This document shows, one piece after another, positions 41,529 through 61,300 of a stretch of DNA of 64,000 nucleotides. The notes below the pieces were generated by a model. The model did no database searches, was not told the origin of the DNA, and saw only the letters and a program-made list of their open reading frames with translations. The position numbers and the translations under genes were made by a program. The DNA is taken from assembly GCA_033807695.1 (NCBI GenBank), contig CM066304.1, positions 4,154,001 through 4,218,000 of the forward strand, read 5' to 3'. The number at the start of each line of letters is the position of its first letter. Positions within the stretch are counted from its first letter, which is position 1. Source of the stretch: Daedaleopsis sinensis. Lineage: Eukaryota; Basidiomycota; Agaricomycetes; Polyporales; Polyporaceae.

Positions 41529-42846
41529 TGCGGCAAAGAGGGCAGGTGCTGAAGCGGAGAAGTGGTTGCGTTTAGCCACGACAGGCCGGCCGTATATATA
41601 CTTGTCCGCAACCTCCGCTCGGAATGCGTTAACACAGTACTAGTGTTAACACCGGCAAGAACGCGCGTCGTCTCGCGTCGTCCCGGAAACGCCAGCATGA
41701 CGCGTCGTCTTCTTTGCCGTGCAGTCAAAGAGATGAGCGTAGGCTAAGTTGTAGAGTTACCGACTCCGAAGAGGAGGTCTCAGGAAACCCCCGTAGGAAC
41801 GTCGGAGCTCGAACTTGCCGGCGGCTGGCCTCGTATGTACGACGCGCCGGAAGAGCGCGCGTCATCCCGGAACGGCAGGAGGCCGCAGGACGACGCGTCT
41901 TCTTTGCCGTGCATGTCCAAGAGATGAGGGTATTCAAACGACTTAGAATTAGAGGCTGCTTTACGAGCCTAGATGAGGGTACGGAGGTCAACGGCAATTG
42001 GAAACATTGTCAGCGAATAGGGATAATCACCTGAGCTGGCGTCCTGTCTGCAACAGCAAATACTGGCCTCGTCTCCAGTTGAACATTGAGACAGGTTGAG
42101 ACCTCCAGTGACGCGCGAGATTGCAATCGTATGGGGTACGTACAAGGGCGGTGCAAATTCGTTGTTGTGGTTGTGCCGATGGATTGCGTATGAATATCAT
42201 CTCCGAGATGACCAGGCGGAGGAGGTGATCGATGATCAGTGGGGTTTAAAGCAAGTTTAAAGATGTTTAAAGTGAGGATTACATGAGTCAAATCAGCGTG
42301 CGCGGCCGCCTTACGCGGCACGCGCCGCCGCTCAAGCGGCTCGGGCGAGGTTGACTACAGCCATGCGCCGCCCCCTCTCTTCCTCTTTCGGAGCAGCCGT
42401 GCTCTGCCGTCGGCTCCGTGCCGCGTGCACAGAGGGCCAGTGTAAGTCGTGAGCGTGAGGTTCGAAATCACTTCCTTCCTTCCGACTTCCAACTCACGAC
42501 TCGCCAGGTACGCACCACAGCCCGTCCCTCGTGCGCCCGTAGACTTCCTGTTGGCCGTCTTCCAACTCTCGACTCGCCAGCTCAGGCTCGAGGCGATCTC
42601 GCGTCCTAATCCAGCTACCCTCCGTGAGAGCGCCGCAGATTTGAATAGGTGGGGCGACGACGAGAGACCTACATCTCCTGCTTGTGCATTTCGAGAAATG
42701 ACGAGAGAACGACGAAGATCAGTAAGAGCTTCTATAGCCAGAGACGATGATTAGACTCGACGTACCGAGCAAGCTGTGCCAGTGGGGCTAGGCTCGTAAA
42801 CCAGCCTCTAGTTCAAGTGTCGGAAGACAGTCGTTCCTTTGAATAG
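41529..42846. other. Flank with transposon-end relics and local duplications
   Basis: No gene. It contains a diverged copy of the transposon end (41754-41823), a segment occurring twice about 190 bp apart (tctttgccgt at 41711 and 41901, each followed by an agagatga tract), and a duplicated tract around cgactcgccag (42497 and 42571). The right end carries a hairpin-forming inverted repeat (42801/42844). Confidence 0.6.
41754..41823. repeat. Diverged solo copy of the transposon terminal repeat
   Basis: The block agaggaggtctcaggaaacc and cccgtaggaacgtcggagctcg aligns with the left terminal repeat at 42853-42920 in the same orientation, with several substitutions. No matching opposite end was seen nearby. 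Confidence 0.8.
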
Positions 42847-42853
42847 AGGCTGG
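42801..42853. repeat. 10-bp inverted repeat abutting the left transposon end
   Basis: ccagcctcta at 42801-42810 and its exact complement tagaggctgg at 42844-42853 flank a 33-nt loop. The right arm overlaps the first bases of the terminal repeat. Confidence 0.8.
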
Positions 42854-42920
42854 AATCACCAAAGAGGAGGGGTGCAGGAAACCCCCGTGGGAACGACGGA
42901 GCTCGAACATGCCGACGGCA
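42847..42920 (+). repeat. Left terminal inverted repeat
   Basis: Begins aggctggaatcacc and runs through gaggaggggtgcagg to gccgacggca. It is the inverted partner of 50883-50956. Confidence 0.92.
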
Positions 42921-43013
42921 ACTTTGACCTCGAGTCTTTGGGCGTCTACTGACGCGTCGCGACGCGTGTATACGCTTCCTTCCTCTGCATCTCTCCCTTG
43001 AAACTTGCGTGCT

Positions 43014-46000
43014 ATGGCTAGCGAGAACGTGGCATCCGACACTGATGAAATAGAAGAGCGCACAGTGAGTATGAGCAGCAGCCGTGAGAAGCCGGACGCT
43101 AACATGACTACAGACCGCGCCGCTGAGTGAGGGAGTTGCCAGCCTGCAGCTGGGCCTAATGGATGATAGTATGGATGACATAGTAAGCACGCTACCGGAG
43201 GCGGTCAGAGCAGTGCTCTTATGCTGCTTGTCTCCAGTCCGAAGGCTCCGAATCACAAGACCTACGTCCAAGACTCGGAGGGCCTTCAAGTTCAACTGCG
43301 TTGCTGAATCCAGGTGCCGCCGCCACCGCACCTAGCCCGCGATTCGTTCCTGGACCATTCTGGACACCTACGTGGATCCCTCCTACCCCTCCAGCCTCAC
43401 AGAGCTCTCGTATCCATCCGCCTGTTCCAATATCTGCCGTATGGCCCCCACCGCCACCAGTGTTTACCTCGAACACACCGCCTGGAAGCTTGCTGTTCAC
43501 GTTCCCCCCCAGTATCTTTCCCCCCCAATCTCAATTTCCACCTGAGCCATTGCTGCCACCATTCGAACGCCGTACTGGAGACCCGGGTCCGTCTGCGTCT
43601 GCACGCACTGACGTCGAGAATGAGATTATCAGGGGACTTCTGGACGACATCCCATTCCCTACGCTCTCTTCGACCCAGCGGACCCGATGGACTAGTCGGG
43701 TGACCGAGCAGCAGCGGCTTGTCATCGTCCTACGGTGCATCAAGAACTGCGGGTTTGATCATATCGGCGCATTTCTCGTTTGCCTCCTCACGCCCGCTAA
43801 ACAAGAAGACGCAATGCCTACTGTGACAAAGTCTGTGTCGACATTTCTGCAGAAGCGAACGTATGCAGGCTCGCACCCTATCGACGTCCTAAAGCTCATG
43901 TATTCACACCCTAAATCCGAGGTGTACGACACGATGGGACAACCTATACCCGTGTCTTTCTCCTCGCTCCCTCGCCATGCGCGCCCGCGCCAGGAACGCT
44001 GCCTGAAGACTCTGCCGCCGGGAACGCGGAACTCTACACGTGGGGACTTTCTCGAATGGACTCTCGCTGACTTGGTGATCCCCCGTATCGATCTCGAGCG
44101 CAATCGTCTCCTTCAGCACGACAACCAGTTCTCCATCCATGGCTCGACTGTTAAGTGGAACTCCATCCTTGGGTGGAACGCGAGCGACGTCCAAGACATC
44201 ATGGCTACACAAGTACGTCTGCTACCGACATGAACCATCATGACTTATTGCTGACATGTGTATAAATGCGAAGGCCCCGGCTATATTCACTTGCATCTCT
44301 ACCCTTTGCATCACGAAGGAAACTCGGAAGAGACTCAATAATGCGGTGGCTCAACAGTTACGGTGAGCTTTACCAGTGTCTAAAAGAAACGACGAGGCAA
44401 ATGCTGACCGCTACGTCTTCAACCTGGCAGCCCATCAGCCCGTGACGGTGATCCGGGCGTGGCAGACGAAGCAGACTTCGAATTTCAGCAGTGTTTACGC
44501 CGTGACCCTTGGCTGGCAAGTCATTCACGTACCAAACGTGAATGACCGTGTACTTACCTGTATCTCTACAGGTGACGACAACGCAAATCTTGAGCGCCCT
44601 CAACATTTCTTACCAGTACGCGACCGGCTTCCCGACTTTTATGGGCAGTGTTCTCTTCGTCACCAATGCCCCCGGACGAATCTACCGCATTCTCGGGCGC
44701 CTCGGCATGTGTGTGTCTTACTCTACCACGTTGAGGCGGCTCGACGCCCTCGCAGAGGATGCATCTGATCGAGCTCGCTCCTGGGGTGAGGAGGTGAAGG
44801 ACGGTCCCCCGGGTGTTTTTGTCTTATGGGACAATGTCAACAAGCGGAAACTACCGTCACAGGTCACGCTCGCGACACAGGTATGGTACTAGTTTGTGTC
44901 GCAGGGGCCCCTGGACACAGCTAATGCTGCGCGCGTTTGCCGTTTCAGGATCATATGAACAACGGTACCGCCGCGACTGTGATTAGACTTGAGGATGTGC
45001 CTCCGGGTGCTCTAGACCTCAAGCCCCTGCTGGACAACATCGCGCAGAGGAAACGACTTGCACTCAAGCTAGAGGACCTCGAGGCCGACGCCGACTGGGC
45101 GCACTTCCGTGGTATTGGTAGAGGCACGATCCTTCGCATATGGATCAAGTATATCACGTCCCTGTCTAAACACCACGGTGCAGCCGAGAAACTGTTCTCA
45201 GAGACCCACAAGAAGCATCCGCTTCGTCTCCGCAAGACTGACATTCAATCCCTGCGGTGCTCGGCCATCGATGAGTCCTCGGCCAAAGGAACCTGGAATC
45301 TCCTGCACGACATCGTCGAGAAACAGCTCGGTATCAAACTCAGCTGGCTGAAGGACAAGATACTACTCATGGGCGGCGATCAGCTCACCGTATCCCTTCT
45401 CCGCAAGGTCAGATCATACCGTTCGACGGCAGATGCATCAGGGAAAACCTCTCGCGCTATTGAGAGATAATTATCTATAATTTGAGACTTTAGACGATTA
45501 GTATAATTCAGTAAGTCCTCTGCTAATTAGTGCGCGATAGCACGGAGAGAGATGAACATTATCATACGGTTACCAGCTGTAGCTATAGCGCGACATTGAT
45601 CACACATCATCATATCCAAATTGTAAGACACGGAAGATGGCAATATATTAATGATTCTACTATGCTACAACTGTACATGATCGCACTACACTCGTATACA
45701 ATGGACCGTATATGTACAAGAACATGAAGATGGGTAAAATAACTCACTGTGACAATTTGCTATGAGCACTGCACGTTGCACAACCACCTGCCGAAACATC
45801 ACCCAGGGCGTATACGATTCGGCGCGCTAGCCTCGATCCCCTCAAAATATCCACGAGCATAAAGAGGGAGTGACGACGTCCATGGCCAAGAGTTCCGGGG
45901 CAGATGATCGACGATCATGTAGGGGAGAGATGGCGCACCTTTCACAAGGAGAGGAGTTTCAGCATCCTGTGTGCAGCCCGCATGCACCTGCACAGCTAAC

Positions 46001-48414
46001 TTCCTTGATTACGGGATAAAAGCGATTAGTAGCCCTCTATATCCTGGATAATGACACATACATACCACCATTCCGGGTATTGATAACATAGGAGCTTGAG
46101 GGTAGACAACATCAGTACAGCTGTTCGGAGGGTGAACATCGAAAACCTCACGACAGACACGGCAGGTTTCTAGCCTGACATACAGGCACTCAATGACTCG
46201 ATCAGGGTTGTGCTTTGTTCGGCCAGAGCCAGTCGCAAACTTGTCAATGCGCGCAGCTAAGCCTAAATGTGCTGTGAGTACCGTCATCCAGCACAGCACG
46301 ATGCCATCCACCCCACATTGGACCTCATGTATCACTTACCTTGATATGAGTGCCCATATAGGCTCCATTGGATGTATCCTGGATGGACGGAGAAGTCGAG
46401 AGGGAGGTTTGGTGGTCTAGGAGGGCATATCGCAAGGTAGCCGTACAAGGCCGTGTATGTAGTGTCGTGCAGGGTGTGGGCCGGCAGAGGTTTCTACTAG
46501 ACGCCGGTGATCAACAGAGACAAACAACGGACTTAGGAAACAAGTCGAAAGATGTGTTTATTGCTGTGATGCTCACCACTGTTCTCTACTATCAGCAGCG
46601 CATATTCTTTTATTTTCTTTCACAGAGAGCTTGTCTGAGCTTTATAAATGTGCTAAGGACTGGTGAGTACGAGAATGAGATTGCATCCACTTGGTTAGTG
46701 TCCAATATTTACTCGATAGCATGGGTAGTGGAATTATCGAGGGTACTTCTCTAAATTATCTATAAGTAGGGCGGGCAGTTTTTCCTGATGTGGATCAGCG
46801 GCGGCAGCACAGTCTTACGTGCCGGTCATCCAGCTGTGGCACATGAAGTGGGCGCTGATGAAGTGTATATTCCGCGTCGGCTACCGACCGGAAACTGCTG
46901 GGCAGGGGGTTGGAGGCATTCACCACGACTGTACGCTCCTTGGTCGCGAGAAGTTTAACCACAAGGTCTGCGAGTTTTACCCCGGTCACCGTATTCTCGA
47001 GGATCGCTTCGAAGCTCTCCTACTGCATGCATTACGGTACGTTCTCGCTCCATTGGCAGTGGTAGTCTAGAGTGATTGGCTGAATGATGCTCTGTAGTAC
47101 AATTTGCGAAGAGAAGACCGGTGTCATTTACGGTGTTGATGTGACGCTTCTTGACGCTGTTAACCGCTACTTCAGCGCCGAAGGGCCCCTCTCTAACTGC
47201 TCATACGACACACTCGCAGCATATGCCGACACTGCATATGAAAGGTATCTCACCCTCGCTGCGTGGGAGCATGCCCATGACGCTGCTTTTTGGGATGAAC
47301 CGACATATGGTCCGCATGTGCCATCTCCAAATCCGGGAAGTGGTATGTACTACCTGCACCTATCTGTGGTTAGTGTACTACCCTGATGGAACCCTTGCAC
47401 ACACCGTTGCCCTACTATCTTGTACTAGGTCACGCTGGAGATCACACCCTCCTAAATAACATAGCTTCACTCCGCCTCACATTTTGGTACATGGAGTTCT
47501 GTGCCGCGACAGCGGAGGGAGACATAGGAAGGGTCATGGAGGTTATCAAGGTGTGTCCATGTGCGATGCATTTGCAACAGCCTGACAGATCCTACATGTC
47601 ATATAGCTCTTGCGGCTCTCGTTCTGGGGTGCGGGTGCGAGGAACTACGGCAACGAGCTCCTTGAGCTCGCGTGCAACTTCAAATACGAATACACACCAG
47701 AGCTCCAAGAGGCAATCCTCAATAACTATCTTGTCAACACGTCAGGCCTCCCGGGTCACTGGTACGAGCTCGACTTGCTTCAGGAGCACAACAACTTCTG
47801 GCTCAAACGCTTTTTTAACCTGAAGAGCCTCAGTTTCGACTCATCCTTCTTACGAAACGTTGTCAGCCTCAATCTCCGTGGATTCTGTGACCTGCGCGAG
47901 ACTATGTTGGACTTCTTCGGATGCCGACGTCCTGGTCGGCGACACACTGACGCCGACACGCAAGCTGACCTAAATAGGCTCGGCACGCACTACAAAGAAG
48001 ACGATGTTCTCCGCCTGCACAGCGGCCGCACCCAGCCGTTCGTGATCATCAACGAGTTCCATCAGGGACTTGAGAAGCTCAGAGCCGGTATACTTCAAGC
48101 CTTCCTCCAGCGGACGACAGCACCCTTAAAGCGGCCTGTTCCCTGGGATGTCCACTGCGACTCGGATGATGCAACCGAACAAGAAGAAGGACTCCCACCG
48201 TCTGATGAGGTATTTGCTCAGCATGTCTGTGACATCCCATCTCAGTAGCAATCTGACAATCGTACATGACATATTGTAGGAAATCATTCTCGATCCCGAT
48301 GAAGAAGAGCTGGACTTTGATTACGTCGAGCCTCCTAATCCGATCATAGCACATTCCGCAGGATACACCACACTGGACCCGTTTGTCTCCCTTAGCAACA
48401 CTGTCGATCTATGA
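43014..48414 (+). CDS. DUF6589 protein, probable transposase, interrupted
   Basis: Many exons starting MASENVASD at 43014; the last one ends at 48414. The early part is Pro-rich, then ENEIIRGLLDDIPF. Family motifs follow in order: VLWDNVNKR (Asp codon 44830-44832), NNGTAATVIRLEDVPPGA, LLMGGDQLTVSLLRK (Asp codon 45378-45380), PVIQLWHMKWALMK, FWYMEFCAATAEGDIGRVME, NELLELACNFKYEY and WYELDLLQEHNNFWLK. The DN and GDQ aspartates with a later Glu (FWYMEF or AEGD) are candidates for a DDE-type RNase-H-like site; that is inference. Between about 45409 and 46800 the frame is lost for 1.3 kb, far longer than any other intron here. The allele is therefore probably disrupted unless this segment is spliced out. 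Confidence 0.8.
45409..46800. mobile_element. Foreign-looking insert splitting the DUF6589 gene
   Basis: Homology to DUF6589 stops after LTVSLLRK and resumes at QSYVPVIQLWHM. The intervening DNA is AT-rich, has stops in all frames and carries the 12-bp direct repeat aattatctataa at 45469-45480 and 46754-46765. This looks like an insertion with duplicated target or terminal sequence. No transposase or LTR is recognisable in it. Confidence 0.6.
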
Positions 48415-48499
48415 GAGGCCGGACAGCGAGTGAGTGCATATGCATCATATCAATGATGATTAACCGATATCGTACAAATACAGTGCTCATCTCCGACGC

Positions 48500-50764
48500 T
48501 CAATCCCGCCCATTCAAGGACCCGCACCCACGCCCACGGCCTCTGCCCCTCCTTCCCCTCCTACTTGGACCTGCAACTGCCTCAGGCTGCTCATGTTTGA
48601 CTTCGGAATTGCCGTTGCGCCTTCCTGTAATGGAATCTTCGCCGTTTATCTTGCGTCGTTTGTGAGTGAGAGAGATTGTATCCGATTTTGAATGCGCGCC
48701 CGAGTCACCGCCACCATTCGGAGTCGCCGCAGCCTGATGCTCTGATCGGGTACCCATAGTAAGTATGACCCGTCGCACAGTAGTTTGAGGGACTGGCGCC
48801 TCGGAGATCTACAGCGAAGTGGTCAATCTCTCTCTATGAATACTAAGTAAGAGGGTGGCTGCAGTGCACTCACCGTCGTTGGAGTATTGCGATCATGTTT
48901 TGCTGATGTTGGAGACTCGAACACCACCGGCGCAGAGTCTGATGCCAACTCCGCCGCTGTGGCACCCATGTCCCGCTCGTTCACGATCGCCTTGATTCCC
49001 TCCAGCGCCACTATGAGAAGATCCACGAGAGCTTGTCCTTCAGTTTCGAAGTAGGCCCATGGTGCTAGTACAGGCCTGAGGTTGTCGGTAGTGATGCTGG
49101 CATGTGCGCGATCAAGGAGGCGAGAAATCTGTGCATCGGATAGGAACTTGAATGATGGCATGTCGCTCGTAGGGGGACGCAGAACCTTCCACCGCTTGAT
49201 CCGGTAGTGTTCGAGAGTTCGACGGAGGAAGGGCTTCTGATGGGCCTCTAGTGGCGGATATGTTCCATCAGAGCGCGGCATAGAAACTTTAGCACGAGGC
49301 GGGATTGTAAGTCTTCGGGACCACACGGCCACAGCTGCTTTGTTTAACGAGGTCTCTGGTTCGGGATGATGTATACTACAACATGGATTGGGGCGGTCAC
49401 CTAGAGCTTCACAGTTGTAAGCAAGGTGGACGTCGCGGGGACACGTGGTGGGTGTCGCATTAAAGAAGTCGAGCACCACTTGAGGCACATTCTTGCGTCG
49501 TGTTGCTTCTTCTTGCTGCGACTTCTTTACAACCATCTCCTTCGGAACAATGCGGAGCCAGCTAGGGACGAACGCATACACCAGGCCAGCTGAGCCGTCT
49601 CGTGAAACACGGCCCCATTGTTGATACAGCTTCGAGTATACCGGCGAGTGAGAGAGCGTCAGAGTGACGACACGTGTAGCCGAGATATTGTAGCCATAGG
49701 TGCAAGCGTCGGTCACAACACCAATCCGGATAGAGCCAGAGTCCATGGCGGCCTTGAATTGGTTGCGCTCTTCGAGATTCATAAGCCCATTACAGGGCAT
49801 GACGAGTCGAGAATGGTTGGTGATCGTAGATGGGATCAGAGAGTCCAGAAACAGCTGAACGCGGTGGCCTTGCTCGATCGTTTCGCAGAAAACGAGAGTG
49901 CGTTCAATCTCACTCGGAGATGTGAAGGAAAGCGGGATGAGAAAGCTCAAGTCTAGAAACTGGGTGCCTGAGACCGCATGCTCGAGAAAGCGAGGGATAA
50001 ACTTGACATTCTTGCGGTCGACAGTGTGCCGTGCGTTGACAAAGTTCCTGAAGCCCAGAGAGCGTGCAATATCTATCGTCTCAGTAGGTGTCGCAGTCCC
50101 AGTCATCCCGGCCCAGATAGTGCGAGAAGGCAGACGATCGCGCATGTGCAGAATCGCCCGATAGGGTTCCAGCCAGACACTCGGATCCTTCTTGTTTGCA
50201 AGGTGGATCTCGTCGATAATGCACCAGCGGATCTGTGAGCGGATCTTGCCCTGGCACAGAATATCCTGCAGGTAATCGTTTTTGAGCATCCACGGTGTGA
50301 CCACGGCGATGCGAATGCCGGTGCGCCCAGCAATCTCCTTGATGAGATCTATTTTGTCGTACAGGGCGTTGCGAAGAGTGTCCTGATTGATGGCTAGCGC
50401 GAAGAGGTTGTACGAGCGGAAAACATAGGCCTGCAAGTGTGTCGCACAAGTCAGCGGCGAGATCTATCACTGGCAATTTCAAGTTAGCGTCACGAAGACC
50501 GACCTGTTGTTCCGTGAGTATCTTTGAGGGGACCACAACGAGAGCGATCCCATTTTCGCCGGCAGACTGAGCATAGATCCATGGTGCCGCCATAACAATT
50601 GTTTTCCCGAGCCCCGGGGCAGCGACAAGGAAGAGATCGTTGCCATAGATGAGGTCGAGTCCGTGGGTGAGCTGGAAGTCACGGACTGTCGCGATGCGGC
50701 ATTCCTTTTGAAGGAGCACCTCAAGATTTCTAGAGCTAGCGGTCGAAGCTGACCGATTATCCAT
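48500..50764 (-). CDS. RecQ-like superfamily 2 DNA helicase of the transposon
   Basis: Three exons (50471-50764, 48874-50430, 48500-48808) join in frame to 719 aa. Motif I is AAPGLGKT, motif Ia region VVVPSKILTEQQ, motif II IIDEIHL (DEIH box), motif III GMTGTAT, motif V VTDACTYGYNI and motif VI QQWGRVSRDG, the RecQ-type order. A cysteine-bearing segment follows (CPRDVHLAYNC, NPCCSIHH), then a tail with KRRK and RGRRGRGRGCG that may bind nucleic acid or direct nuclear import. All key residues are intact, so the enzyme could be active. It probably assists DNA unwinding during transposition of the surrounding element (inference). It is convergent with the DUF6589 gene. Confidence 0.92.
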
Positions 50765-50882
50765 GGCTAGAGTAGAATTACAGAATCATAGGTCGTGATA
50801 CAGGCATCCGTGGGTCGTAGTAGGTCGTAGTCGATTGCTGCTGAGCAGCGCGAGTCCCGGCGCCTCGTACATCCTAGGCCAG

Positions 50883-50956
50883 TGCCGTCGGCATCTTCAC
50901 ACTCCGACGTTCCCACGGGGGTTTCCTGCACCCCTCCTCTTTGGTGATTCTAGCCT
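50883..50956 (-). repeat. Right terminal inverted repeat
   Basis: The reverse complement of the left end, with six differences over 74 bp; the 43-bp core at 50908-50950 is identical. Confidence 0.92.
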
Positions 50957-52237
50957 AAGTGGGGCAACCAGATTTTGCAGCGGACTGCAGCGGACTGCAG
51001 CGACGCGACGCGGCGTGACGCGACGTGACGCGAGAGTGAGTATAGACGCCAGTGTTTAATAGCAGGCGCCGGCAAAGCGCCCGTCGCTGCCTGTCGTTCG
51101 TCTGAGATTACACAGGTACGACAGGCTATACAGACGATATGATACATCACAGGACTCTTATAAGAGTCCGATGGTGTTCCATCCCGTACTCTAGTTACAG
51201 TCCACGGCTCTGGATGCATCTAGAGCAGGGACTCTGAATGCATCCACAGTTGCCTGCCCCTCTAATAGGTATCCCCGCGCTCCCTCCCCTTTTGGGGCCA
51301 GTAGCGCTCTCCTCCGTTTCCCTAAATGGTTGGCTAGCGCGCTCTCCCCGTTTGGGCCCGCCAGCGCGTTGATGGGCCCCCGCCGCATGCTACCCCTTTG
51401 GGACGGTCTGCACTTCAGCAGCAAGCGGACATTGAAATATAGCGGCCTCGTGGGTATACCCCGGATCTGGATCGCCTTAGGTCTGCTTTCGGCCAGCTTC
51501 CGATCCCACATACAATAGAACATACCTGTGAAACAGCCCGAATCGGCGGCTCTATCCCTTCCCTATCCGGACATATGTTCCGGACATATCATACGGCTCG
51601 ACATATGAGCCTGAAAGGTATGGATCGACTTCGAGCTACTGGTATACGTCGCCGCAGAGCACATACTACAAACAGTGTGTCATATTGCGAATGGAGGGTT
51701 TACTTCCGTGACATACCATTATGTCAGATCATATCATTGCACCCAAAGTCCAATTCTCGCTGTATGATGGAGACTAATGTATGTGAATAATGTACCAGTG
51801 AACCGAACATGTATTGTTCGAATTGACAACATAGTCCGTATGCTTTTCAGTCGACCTATGACATCATATCGTAGGAGTCAGTCCCGGATTTGGACATGCA
51901 AGCGCGCGTGCGTTGATATACTCTAACACCCACAGCAAACACAAGTATTATGCATACGAGTACAAGTGCGGCACACATTTTATATGACAGCATGGGGAGC
52001 ATATTATTGGAAGCACTATTATCACAGAGTCATCGATAACTACAACAACGAAGTGTCAGGTTTTTGGAGTCGATACAGTACGAGTCCGGCTAGCAATCAG
52101 ACAGGAGATGAAGTGCATCATAACAGGCATTTTGAGCGAGAACGAGAGAGCCATACGTCAGGAATTGACAGGCATTTTTAGACATACATTGCGCGAGAGC
52201 GCCTTTGGGTAGGACAGCCAAGTCGAAAGCCACAACC
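50957..52237. other. Intergenic region between the two mobile blocks
   Basis: No gene is supported. Directly right of the transposon end the unit cggactgcag occurs twice (50980-51000), followed by a cgacgcg-rich tract. tccggacatat occurs twice near 51560-51590. The remainder is AT-rich and unassigned; it may hold the left border of the KDZ-associated block. Confidence 0.5.
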
Positions 52238-58367: not shown

Positions 58368-61300
58368 ATGAAACGGGGTCGGAAACCCCGTTTCACCTTC
58401 TACGAGCTTTCGGACGACGACACAGACGACGAACACTCTGGCAATAACTCCCGTGTTCGAACTGAAGTCCACACCCATGTTGACTGGTCTCGCCGCGAGG
58501 CGGGTCCGAGCGCACGCACCACCTACCACGACCTCCCCGGCTCTCCTACCAAGCGTCGAGCGCAGTCTCTCCCTCCGTCTACTACTTGCAACGACTTCGG
58601 CGACACGCTATACGACCCGGAGCGTGAGGCTATCGACATCGACTACCTCTACCAGCAAATCGAGGACTTGAAGGATGACCCACAGCCTCGGAAACGTACT
58701 GCAGGGGTAAGCCCTCGTGTTTGTGTCACGTTTACTTGTCGCTGAACGCAGCTTTAGGACAACCCGATGCTACAGTGGGTCGGAGAGGCCGATGCATACC
58801 TTGCCGAGCTCTTACGGTTGGAGGGGTGCGGTGACTTCGCCACCACGGACTGCCCATGCGGCGGTGGCGACGCTCGCTATCGCTGTGAGGACTGCACCGA
58901 CGTTCGATTACACTGCGAAGTATGCGTGCTCGCACGACACAGGGAAAACCCTTTGCATCGCATCAAGGTGAGCTGCTCGCACAGACATGCGTGATACTAC
59001 GCTCACTGCCTTGCACACAGCGTTGGGATCACGAGCAGAAGTTCTTCTTGCGCATCTCCCTCGCCGCCCTAGGCCTCCGTCTCCAGCTAGGCCATCCTCC
59101 GGGGGAAGAGTGTCTCTGCCCACGATATCCTTGGGGTCAAGAATTCGTCATCGTCGACACATCTGGTGTGCATGAAGTCAACCTCATGTATTGCGGGTGC
59201 GAACGTGCTCTCCCCCATTATATCCAACTTCTTCGTGCTCGGCTCTATCCCGCAACTTCACAAGCCCCCCGAACCGCCGCTACGTTCCAGGTCCTCGAGT
59301 TGTTTCACATTCTGTGCGCACAGTCGAAGGTCTCAGCCTTCGATTTCTACTCCACGCTCTCGCGGCGCACGGACAACACCGGCATGTTTACGCCTAGGGT
59401 ACGTTCAGTGTCCACATCGTAGTCACTCCCGTCTGATTCAATTGCAGGATCGATACCCCGCCTTCCTCAACATCATGCGCCAGTGGCGCCATCTCAAAAT
59501 GATGAAGCGCGCAGGCCGCGGCCATGATCCCGGCGGGATTGCGGCTACGCCGGAAGGTTCTTGTGTCGTCCTTTGTCCTGCGTGTCCCCATCCCGGCAAG
59601 AACCTCCCTCCTGACTGGGAGAAGGCTCCACCAGAGAAGAGGTGATGTTACCCCTGTGCTCGTCTCGTCGTCGCATATACTGACACCGTCAATTGCAGTT
59701 GGCTGTACAAACTCTACATCGCCATGGACGCCAACTTCCGTCTGAAGAGGAAGAAGGTCTCCTCCGACGAAGTCGATCCTGGCCTCAATCACGGGTACGC
59801 CTACGTCGTCGAGGAGAAGGCCTACAAGGCGCATCTCGCGAAACACAGTGACCTCGTCACGAAACCCTCCGACCTTTGCAATAACCACGATGCTGTCAAA
59901 CTCGCGCACTCCAAAGGCGGTCCACACCTGGCAGCGACCGGCGTCGCTAGTGTCGACTGCGCACGCCATGAGATGAAACGCCCATGCTCCACTGCCGACA
60001 TTCAGCGCGGTGAACGGTGCGTACTCTGCTCATCTGTCGTGTTCACTGCTCATAGCTGATTATTTGTTTCAGCTACGTCAACATGGACTACGTCCAGTAC
60101 TCTTCTCTACGCCAGAACGCTCCCCGACGTGTGCACTTTACGTACGATGTCAGCTGTATTTATAAGGAGAATATCGACGATCGATACTGCGACTACGGCT
60201 GGCCTTGTCTCTCGCTCGATTACGACATCGAGTGGGGCGTCCCCAAGTTTCACATCAACGGGCACAAGGACTTCTGTCGTGCTCAGTACAACCTCCACTT
60301 CATTCCTCACTCGGCACGCGACGACGGCGAGGCGATCGAACGAGGATGGTCTCGCACCAATGGCATCGCAGCCAGTACGAAGGAGATGGGGCCCGGCTCT
60401 CGCCGTGACCTCTTAGACGACATATTTGGCTGCCACAACTGGCAGAAGGTCATCCTTCTGCGTGAGTCCTCTTGAATGTCGTTCTGCGGGACCCACACTA
60501 ACCACACGACTTCTTTGCGTAGCTGCAACGTTCCTCACACGGATCAAGAAGGCCGTGCCTGAGCGCAACGCCCAGGTGCTCGCGTTTCAGCAGTACCACG
60601 CGGCCCTTCCCTTGGAAGCCACGTCGCGCTGGAAGCTCATGGTGGAAAGCTGGGAGAAGGACCGCTCGCCGTTGAGCAACCCCTACCTCATCAAGAGGCC
60701 AAGTGAGTACACTCGAAGCTCGAAGTTGATGCAGACCCTTACGATCTCCTTGTCAACAGCGATCACTCAGGCGGCGATCAAGCGTCAATTCGCCGAAGAG
60801 GACGCAGAGGCGCACAAGGCAGGGTCAGCTGTTGTCTTGCACGACAAATTCACGGCGAGCAACATGATCGTCGCTGGCCTTGAGCTTGAGGACGCACAGT
60901 ACGTTTTCTCTGCATTGTTCTTAATAGTATCGTGCTTCGAACTGATGCCTCCCCAGACGACGTCTCAAGACTGAGCTCGCCTCCCTGTCTACACATGCCA
61001 CGGACCTTCAACGCGCCAAGATGCAAGAGCGCCAGAACATGCTACAACGCCGGATCGACTCTTGGTTTGCTATACAACAGCTGTACGCCCCTTCCGTCGT
61101 CGCGCGACGCTCGCGGATGCTCGCCGCGAACGAGTCCGCAGGACACACCCACACCATCCCGCTCTTGCTCCCTTCCGCCACGCTCGACAACAGTTCCTCC
61201 CGTCCCTCCGAGTCTTTGATCTCCATCGAATGGCGACTGCGCTACGCACAGGCGTTCGACGCTCTCAGCGACCTTCGCGGTCATCTTGAAGTTCGGACAC

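Follow-up and report, generated by a model that had tools for sequence, protein, structure and literature searches.

The window analysed here is a 64,000-bp stretch of the genome of the polypore fungus Daedaleopsis sinensis (contig CM066304.1, positions 4,154,001 to 4,218,000, i.e. C5:4154001-4218000), and all counts given below come from this one host genome of 51.6 Mb. Within the window, two convergent genes, one on the + strand encoding a protein with the Pfam domain DUF6589 (PF20231) and the other on the - strand encoding a superfamily 2 (SF2), RecQ-like helicase, lie between inverted repeats and a pair of target-site duplications (TSDs). An earlier note on this DNA had recognized these genes and proposed that they constitute a two-gene DNA transposon, with the DUF6589 protein as the likely transposase; the analysis presented here confirms the gene arrangement and supports the proposal. 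The features of the element are:

42781..42788, no strand: left TSD, AGTGGGGC, repeated in direct orientation at 50958-50965; comparison of copies defines this boundary
42789..50957, + strand: whole element, 8169 bp, delimited where copies with differing flanks start and stop
42789..42853, + strand: left terminal segment, TAGGCTCGTAAACCAGCCTCTAG..., in which CCAGCCTCTA ... TAGAGGCTGG form a foldback hairpin, from alignment of copies and folding
42847..42920, + strand: left arm of the inverted repeat, subterminal
43014..48414, + strand: DUF6589 gene, predicted model of 12 exons and 1121 residues
Exons 1-6 of this gene, + strand: 43014-43064, 43114-43182, 43238-44212, 44274-44362, 44431-44515, 44572-44880
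Exons 7-12 of this gene, + strand: 44949-45407, 46813-47036, 47098-47342, 47429-47550, 47607-48209, 48280-48414
44830..44832, + strand: first candidate catalytic D (WDNVN), residue 510
45378..45380, + strand: second candidate catalytic D (GDQ), residue 670
45436..46790, no strand: nested 1355-bp element with ends CATCAGGGAAAA / TTTTTCCTGATG, not in sister copy B
47784..47786, + strand: candidate third acid, E (DLLQEH), residue 936
48500..50764, - strand: RecQ-like SF2 helicase gene, exons 50764-50504, 50430-48874 and 48808-48500
50883..50956, - strand: right arm of the inverted repeat; the true right end of the element is 50957
50958..50965, no strand: right TSD, AGTGGGGC, from comparison of copies

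The inverted arms, taken in the earlier note for the termini, match at 68 of 74 positions and are real, but the left arm is subterminal, as alignment of the ends of copies places the left terminus at 42789, 58 bp outside it. Approximately 58 bp outward of a window-type left arm are common to the copies, often starting with TAGGCTCGTAAACC, and divergence begins beyond this point. The foldback hairpin is present at the left end and absent from the right end of the window element, and the left 75 nt, folded with RNA parameters and no shuffle control, gave -25.5 kcal/mol. Scoring of TSDs was confined to 15 pairs of ends from among the matches to the 74-bp arm, and perfect 8-bp duplications were found in 14 of them (13 of the 14 pairs A-N, where A is the window element, and copy Q), the sole miss being pair L, a copy with decayed ends.

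The 74-bp arm has at least 40 matches in the genome (40 of 49 candidates were scored), and the left terminal motif has 75 matches at up to 3 mismatches, including 33 exact ones, against none for a reversed-pattern control. A search for further gene-bearing copies in the host genome yielded two (B and Q), each with both genes and a TSD of its own, while most copies seem to be gene-less. Copy B (C5:4220347-4227158, 6812 bp) is flanked by AGGAAGAC, a TSD differing from that of A, and a part-by-part comparison revealed no mismatch between the two over 6812 positions (2647 to the left and 4165 to the right of the insert in A), so that the 1355-bp insert in an intron of A is their sole difference. 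Since A and B are otherwise identical, have different TSDs and lie 23.6 kb apart (start to start), they point to recent movement of the family.

Copy Q (C3, 6830 bp, TSD ATTTATCG) is divergent, its helicase and DUF6589 core being 73% and 68% identical, respectively, to those of the window. Between B and Q, the proportion of nonsynonymous substitutions (pN) in DUF6589 was 0.24 and that of synonymous substitutions (pS) 0.76; the helicase had a pN of 0.27 and a pS of 0.72. A low pN/pS for DUF6589 was also obtained for the pairs C7-C4 and C11-C6b (three pairs tested in all). Synonymous sites are near saturation in most pairs and therefore only the contrast of pN with pS is meaningful; judged by this contrast, both genes are under constraint in B-Q, and DUF6589 is so in the two further pairs as well.

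Gene-less derivatives share the ends of the family, and the pairs C-N span 0.4-2.2 kb, except for pair I with 14 kb. The latter (C3:2798434-2812753) is a 0.65-kb non-autonomous copy split by a retroelement-like stretch of ~13.7 kb, in which frames resembling a reverse transcriptase and a tyrosine recombinase were recognized by eye. A decayed 232-bp relic of the same family lies just to the left of the window element (41740-41971, TAGGCT ... AGCCTA), with an 8-bp duplication containing one mismatch (GATGAGCG/GATGAGGG, by eye). The only other close match in the helicase search of the genome, C7:2632714, belongs to a helicase at C7:2631993-2633793 that is 67% identical to that of the window; a left-end-like motif (3 mismatches) lies 0.7 kb off and no DUF6589 match was listed nearby, which suggests a partial or rearranged copy.

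The spliced DUF6589 protein matches PF20231 with 335.4 bits (E 5.5e-100), a score obtained with an earlier gene model in which exon 5 was read in another frame; this model was replaced after copy Q indicated that intron 5 is of the GC-AG type, and the exon frames from ~43540 onward were compared with Q. Both aspartates highlighted in the earlier note are encoded where it had placed them (codons at 44830, WDN, and 45378, GDQ) and the D of DN and the D of GD are conserved at all 15 loci compared, the fragment C11:1239893 being left out. A late motif, N-x-L-x-N...D-x3-E, supplies a third acid, E936, which is present at all 14 loci read there (C8:1745897 and the fragment C11:1239893 are not among the 14), and the D preceding it is N at C2:1673824. 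The protein thus has the three ordered, conserved acidic residues of a DDE transposase, and we infer that it acts as one via D510, D670 and, probably, E936. Both aspartates come after mostly hydrophobic runs (GVFVLWDN, KILLMGGD), an arrangement that would resemble the strand ends of an RNase-H core. The H of FH/WH (residue 689) is invariant in 12 aligned rows; its position 19 residues past the second D recalls the C/DxxH motif described in the available part of PMC9587614, although the C/D position is not kept. A DUF6589 subtype reading GDLGTYER was seen at C2:980816-983608, partly inside a 1216-residue open frame, and at C8:2292589-2293743, with no helicase match within 5 kb of either; this subtype might represent either a lineage that lacks the helicase or a gene that has been domesticated.

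The association of the two genes extends beyond this family. The 30 PF20231 matches in the genome were grouped by eye into 16 DUF6589 loci, and the helicase matches, obtained by protein search and with the RecQ model TIGR00614 (exons scored apart for the latter), collapse to 29 loci. A convergent helicase match lies within 2.3 kb (match to match) at 11 of the 16 DUF6589 loci, where a simple calculation gives a chance expectation of ~0.03 pairs, and in the comparison set of 44 chromodomain matches none was near any of the 16. The helicase is therefore a recurrent partner, as had been proposed. Inverted repeats and TSDs of 8-10 bp were found at nine of the 11 paired loci, namely A, B, Q and the following six:

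C7 two-gene element: TSD AGTGTTGAT, 9 bp
C4 two-gene element: TSD GGTATGCCGC, 10 bp
C11 two-gene element: TSD CCATGCAAG, 9 bp
C6:2005767 two-gene element: TSD CAGTACCC, 8 bp
C1 two-gene element: TSD AAGTAGTTG, 9 bp, with a boundary ambiguous by one G
C3 two-gene element: TSD GTCCTGGGC, 9 bp

Divergent families share this pair of convergent genes. The sequence at the start is T(A/G)G(G/T)CTCG in eight of the nine elements whose ends are fixed and GGATAAATC in the C1 element. In the C7, C4, C11 and C6:2005767 elements a foldback stem (CCAGACGT...ACGTCTGG or near) is located just inside both ends. Copies A, B and Q have kept it at the left end only, and their right end apparently arose by a deletion between two AGGCT repeats.

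In its first two exons, which the Pfam scan covered, the helicase matches the domains DEAD and Helicase_C; the third exon is predicted on the strength of an open frame and a splice acceptor. Among proteins of solved structure, the closest relatives of the helicase are RecQ proteins (E 1.1e-4). The C7 sister helicase reads IIDEAHCITQWGKDFR, which we take to be the usual RecQ form, where the window helicase reads IIDEIHLANKKD; by this comparison, the RecQ loop is altered in the latter. The window protein retains a C...CCxxH stretch that resembles the RecQ zinc site. Elsewhere in the genome, RecQ-model matches were found 19, 29, 30 and 160 kb from contig ends (C7:18657, C6:28843, C3:4840825 and C3:4710528, respectively); these are possibly telomere-linked helicases like those reported, in the part of the paper available, from Agaricus bisporus (PMC7473861).

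Taken together, these data are best explained by an autonomous, AcademH-like two-gene DNA transposon with DUF6589 as its probable DDE transposase and the RecQ-type helicase as a partner, a reading to which we assign a probability of roughly 0.86 on the sequence evidence. The DUF6589 transposase would recognize the ends of the element, one of them carrying the foldback hairpin, excise the element and join it across an 8-bp stagger, and the helicase would assist by unwinding or remodelling either the ends or, following strand transfer, the gapped joint. Cut-and-paste is the most likely mode of transposition.

Several observations weigh against this explanation. A sequence-profile search of the PDB with DUF6589 returned two meaningless matches and leaves the RNase-H fold unsupported, and cut-and-paste cannot be told from copying with the present data. 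No helicase match lies within 5 kb of five of the 16 DUF6589 loci, namely C9:3423332, C8:2292589, C8:1745897, C2:980816 and the fragment C11:1239893; C9:3423332 has one at a distance of 10 kb, in the other arrangement. With TIGR00614 alone, a helicase is found within 5 kb at only 8 of the 16 loci, and no match in the genome reaches the cut-off of that model. Two paired loci, C6:3072807 and C2:1673824, show no inverted repeats in the fetched stretches, which are possibly too short. Among the matches listed, those to the KDZ transposase domain, which are far commoner in the genome, were seen by eye to include some at ~3.8 kb from a single DUF6589 locus of the 16 (C3:2548255). Finally, the earlier note had regarded ends that usually lack these genes as grounds for rejecting its proposal, and, taken literally, this is what the genome seems to contain: only 3 of the 33 exact left ends (A, B and Q) come from copies shown to hold both genes, and alignment revealed no such gene pair at the 15 of the other 30 that lie in fetched loci. 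We read the gene-less copies as ordinary non-autonomous derivatives. Their abundance would also suit a DUF6589 gene that is a mere passenger in an element moved by an unrelated transposase. We regard such a passenger as very unlikely, since nine elements, of which A and B belong to one family, have DUF6589 enclosed by inverted repeats with TSDs and differ widely at their extreme ends (C1 vs the others), the acidic motifs of DUF6589 are conserved, and pN/pS was low in all three pairs tested.

The element resembles a helicase-carrying type of transposon already in print, and the comparisons that follow rely on the accessible portions of the cited papers. AcademH (Kojima 2020, Mob DNA 11:15), known here by description only and recorded from fungi and animals, has a helicase and TSDs of 9 or 10 bp (PMC10045372), and its copy number is described as low in Basidiomycota, Ascomycota and Mucoromycota (PMC10799480). 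There is a good chance that the element simply is AcademH, with DUF6589 being what Pfam calls the AcademH transposase of fungi, and all differences lying at the family level; this is a narrower form of the explanation preferred above and not an exclusive alternative to it. The window element has a helicase gene beside that of the putative transposase, and five sister elements have TSDs of AcademH length (9 bp in C7, C11, C1 and C3, and 10 bp in C4), the strongest sign that the DUF6589 and RecQ combination is AcademH. What argues against it is the 8-bp TSD of the window family (14 of 15 pairs, Q included) and of C6:2005767. The suggestion of AcademH in the earlier note therefore fits the helicase and the sisters but not the TSDs of the window family, and because of this mismatch the window element is called an AcademH-like variant rather than filed as a member; by analogy it would work like AcademH and is probably its sister, variant or part.

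The same note had offered a new superfamily as the alternative, and nothing found here requires one. In such a case, DUF6589 elements would form a transposase superfamily apart from Academ, distinguished by foldback-hairpin ends and a convergent RecQ gene and moving not by simple excision but by peel-off or copy-out, with the helicase driving strand displacement from the hairpin ends, which we consider improbable. The helicase might also recall KolobokH, a lineage of Kolobok described as confined to fungi and as carrying a RecQ helicase (PMC9587614). The Kolobok TSD is given as TTAA, 4 bp (3-5 bp for KolobokP), and the KolobokH helicase as located downstream of the transposase domain, while here the TSDs are 8-10 bp long and varied in sequence and the helicase is a separate gene on the opposite strand; KolobokH was rejected on account of its TSD and is the least probable of the readings considered.

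Other known groups were also set aside. The nuclease of AcademX elements is XPG, and no XPG was found among the Pfam matches of the DUF6589 protein and of the first two helicase exons. The TSDs of AcademX are described as 3 or 4 bp long (PMC10045372), vs 8 bp here. KDZ (Zisupton) elements are similar in being fungal, and Zisupton is stated to make 8-bp TSDs (PMC12730594), but the window protein matches only DUF6589 above the Pfam cut-off and not the KDZ domain PF18758; in the proteins scanned, the helicase again being represented by its first two exons, no Pfam domain of either KDZ or hAT exceeded the cut-off. The gene-less copies may be likened, by description only, to the 'putative Academ' elements of another agaricomycete, Marasmius oreades, which are reported as non-autonomous, gene-less and widespread and were classed by end motif and TSD length (PMC8290104).

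The nested element occupies intron 7 of the DUF6589 gene model, has the ends CATCAGG..CCTGATG and is flanked by the TSD TG (45434-45435 and 46791-46792). The same ends and a TSD of equal length are printed for PlavakaB (PMC12730594), and on this basis the nested element appears Plavaka-like. KDZ transposase matches are present on the + strand of the window at 59706-60439 (C5:4213706-4214439), and at least 175 such matches, with exons counted apart, were found in the genome. The KDZ and Plavaka-like content would by itself suggest a basidiomycete host.

Scans of viral contigs revealed no relative. A full-text search of 5.39 million open papers, a set without subscription papers or Repbase reports, gave no mention of DUF6589, and the one paper in it with the term PF20231 is on optics and unrelated; the link of DUF6589 to transposition may already be known elsewhere. 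The main value of the finding is that a Pfam family of unknown function gains a likely and testable job, with three specified residues as candidates for catalysis and with the ends plus the 8-bp joint as its defined substrates. A recently mobile two-gene family also provides a setting in which the role of RecQ helicases in DNA transposition can be probed, and fungal genes annotated as DUF6589, or the RecQ genes adjoining them, may be transposon rather than host genes.

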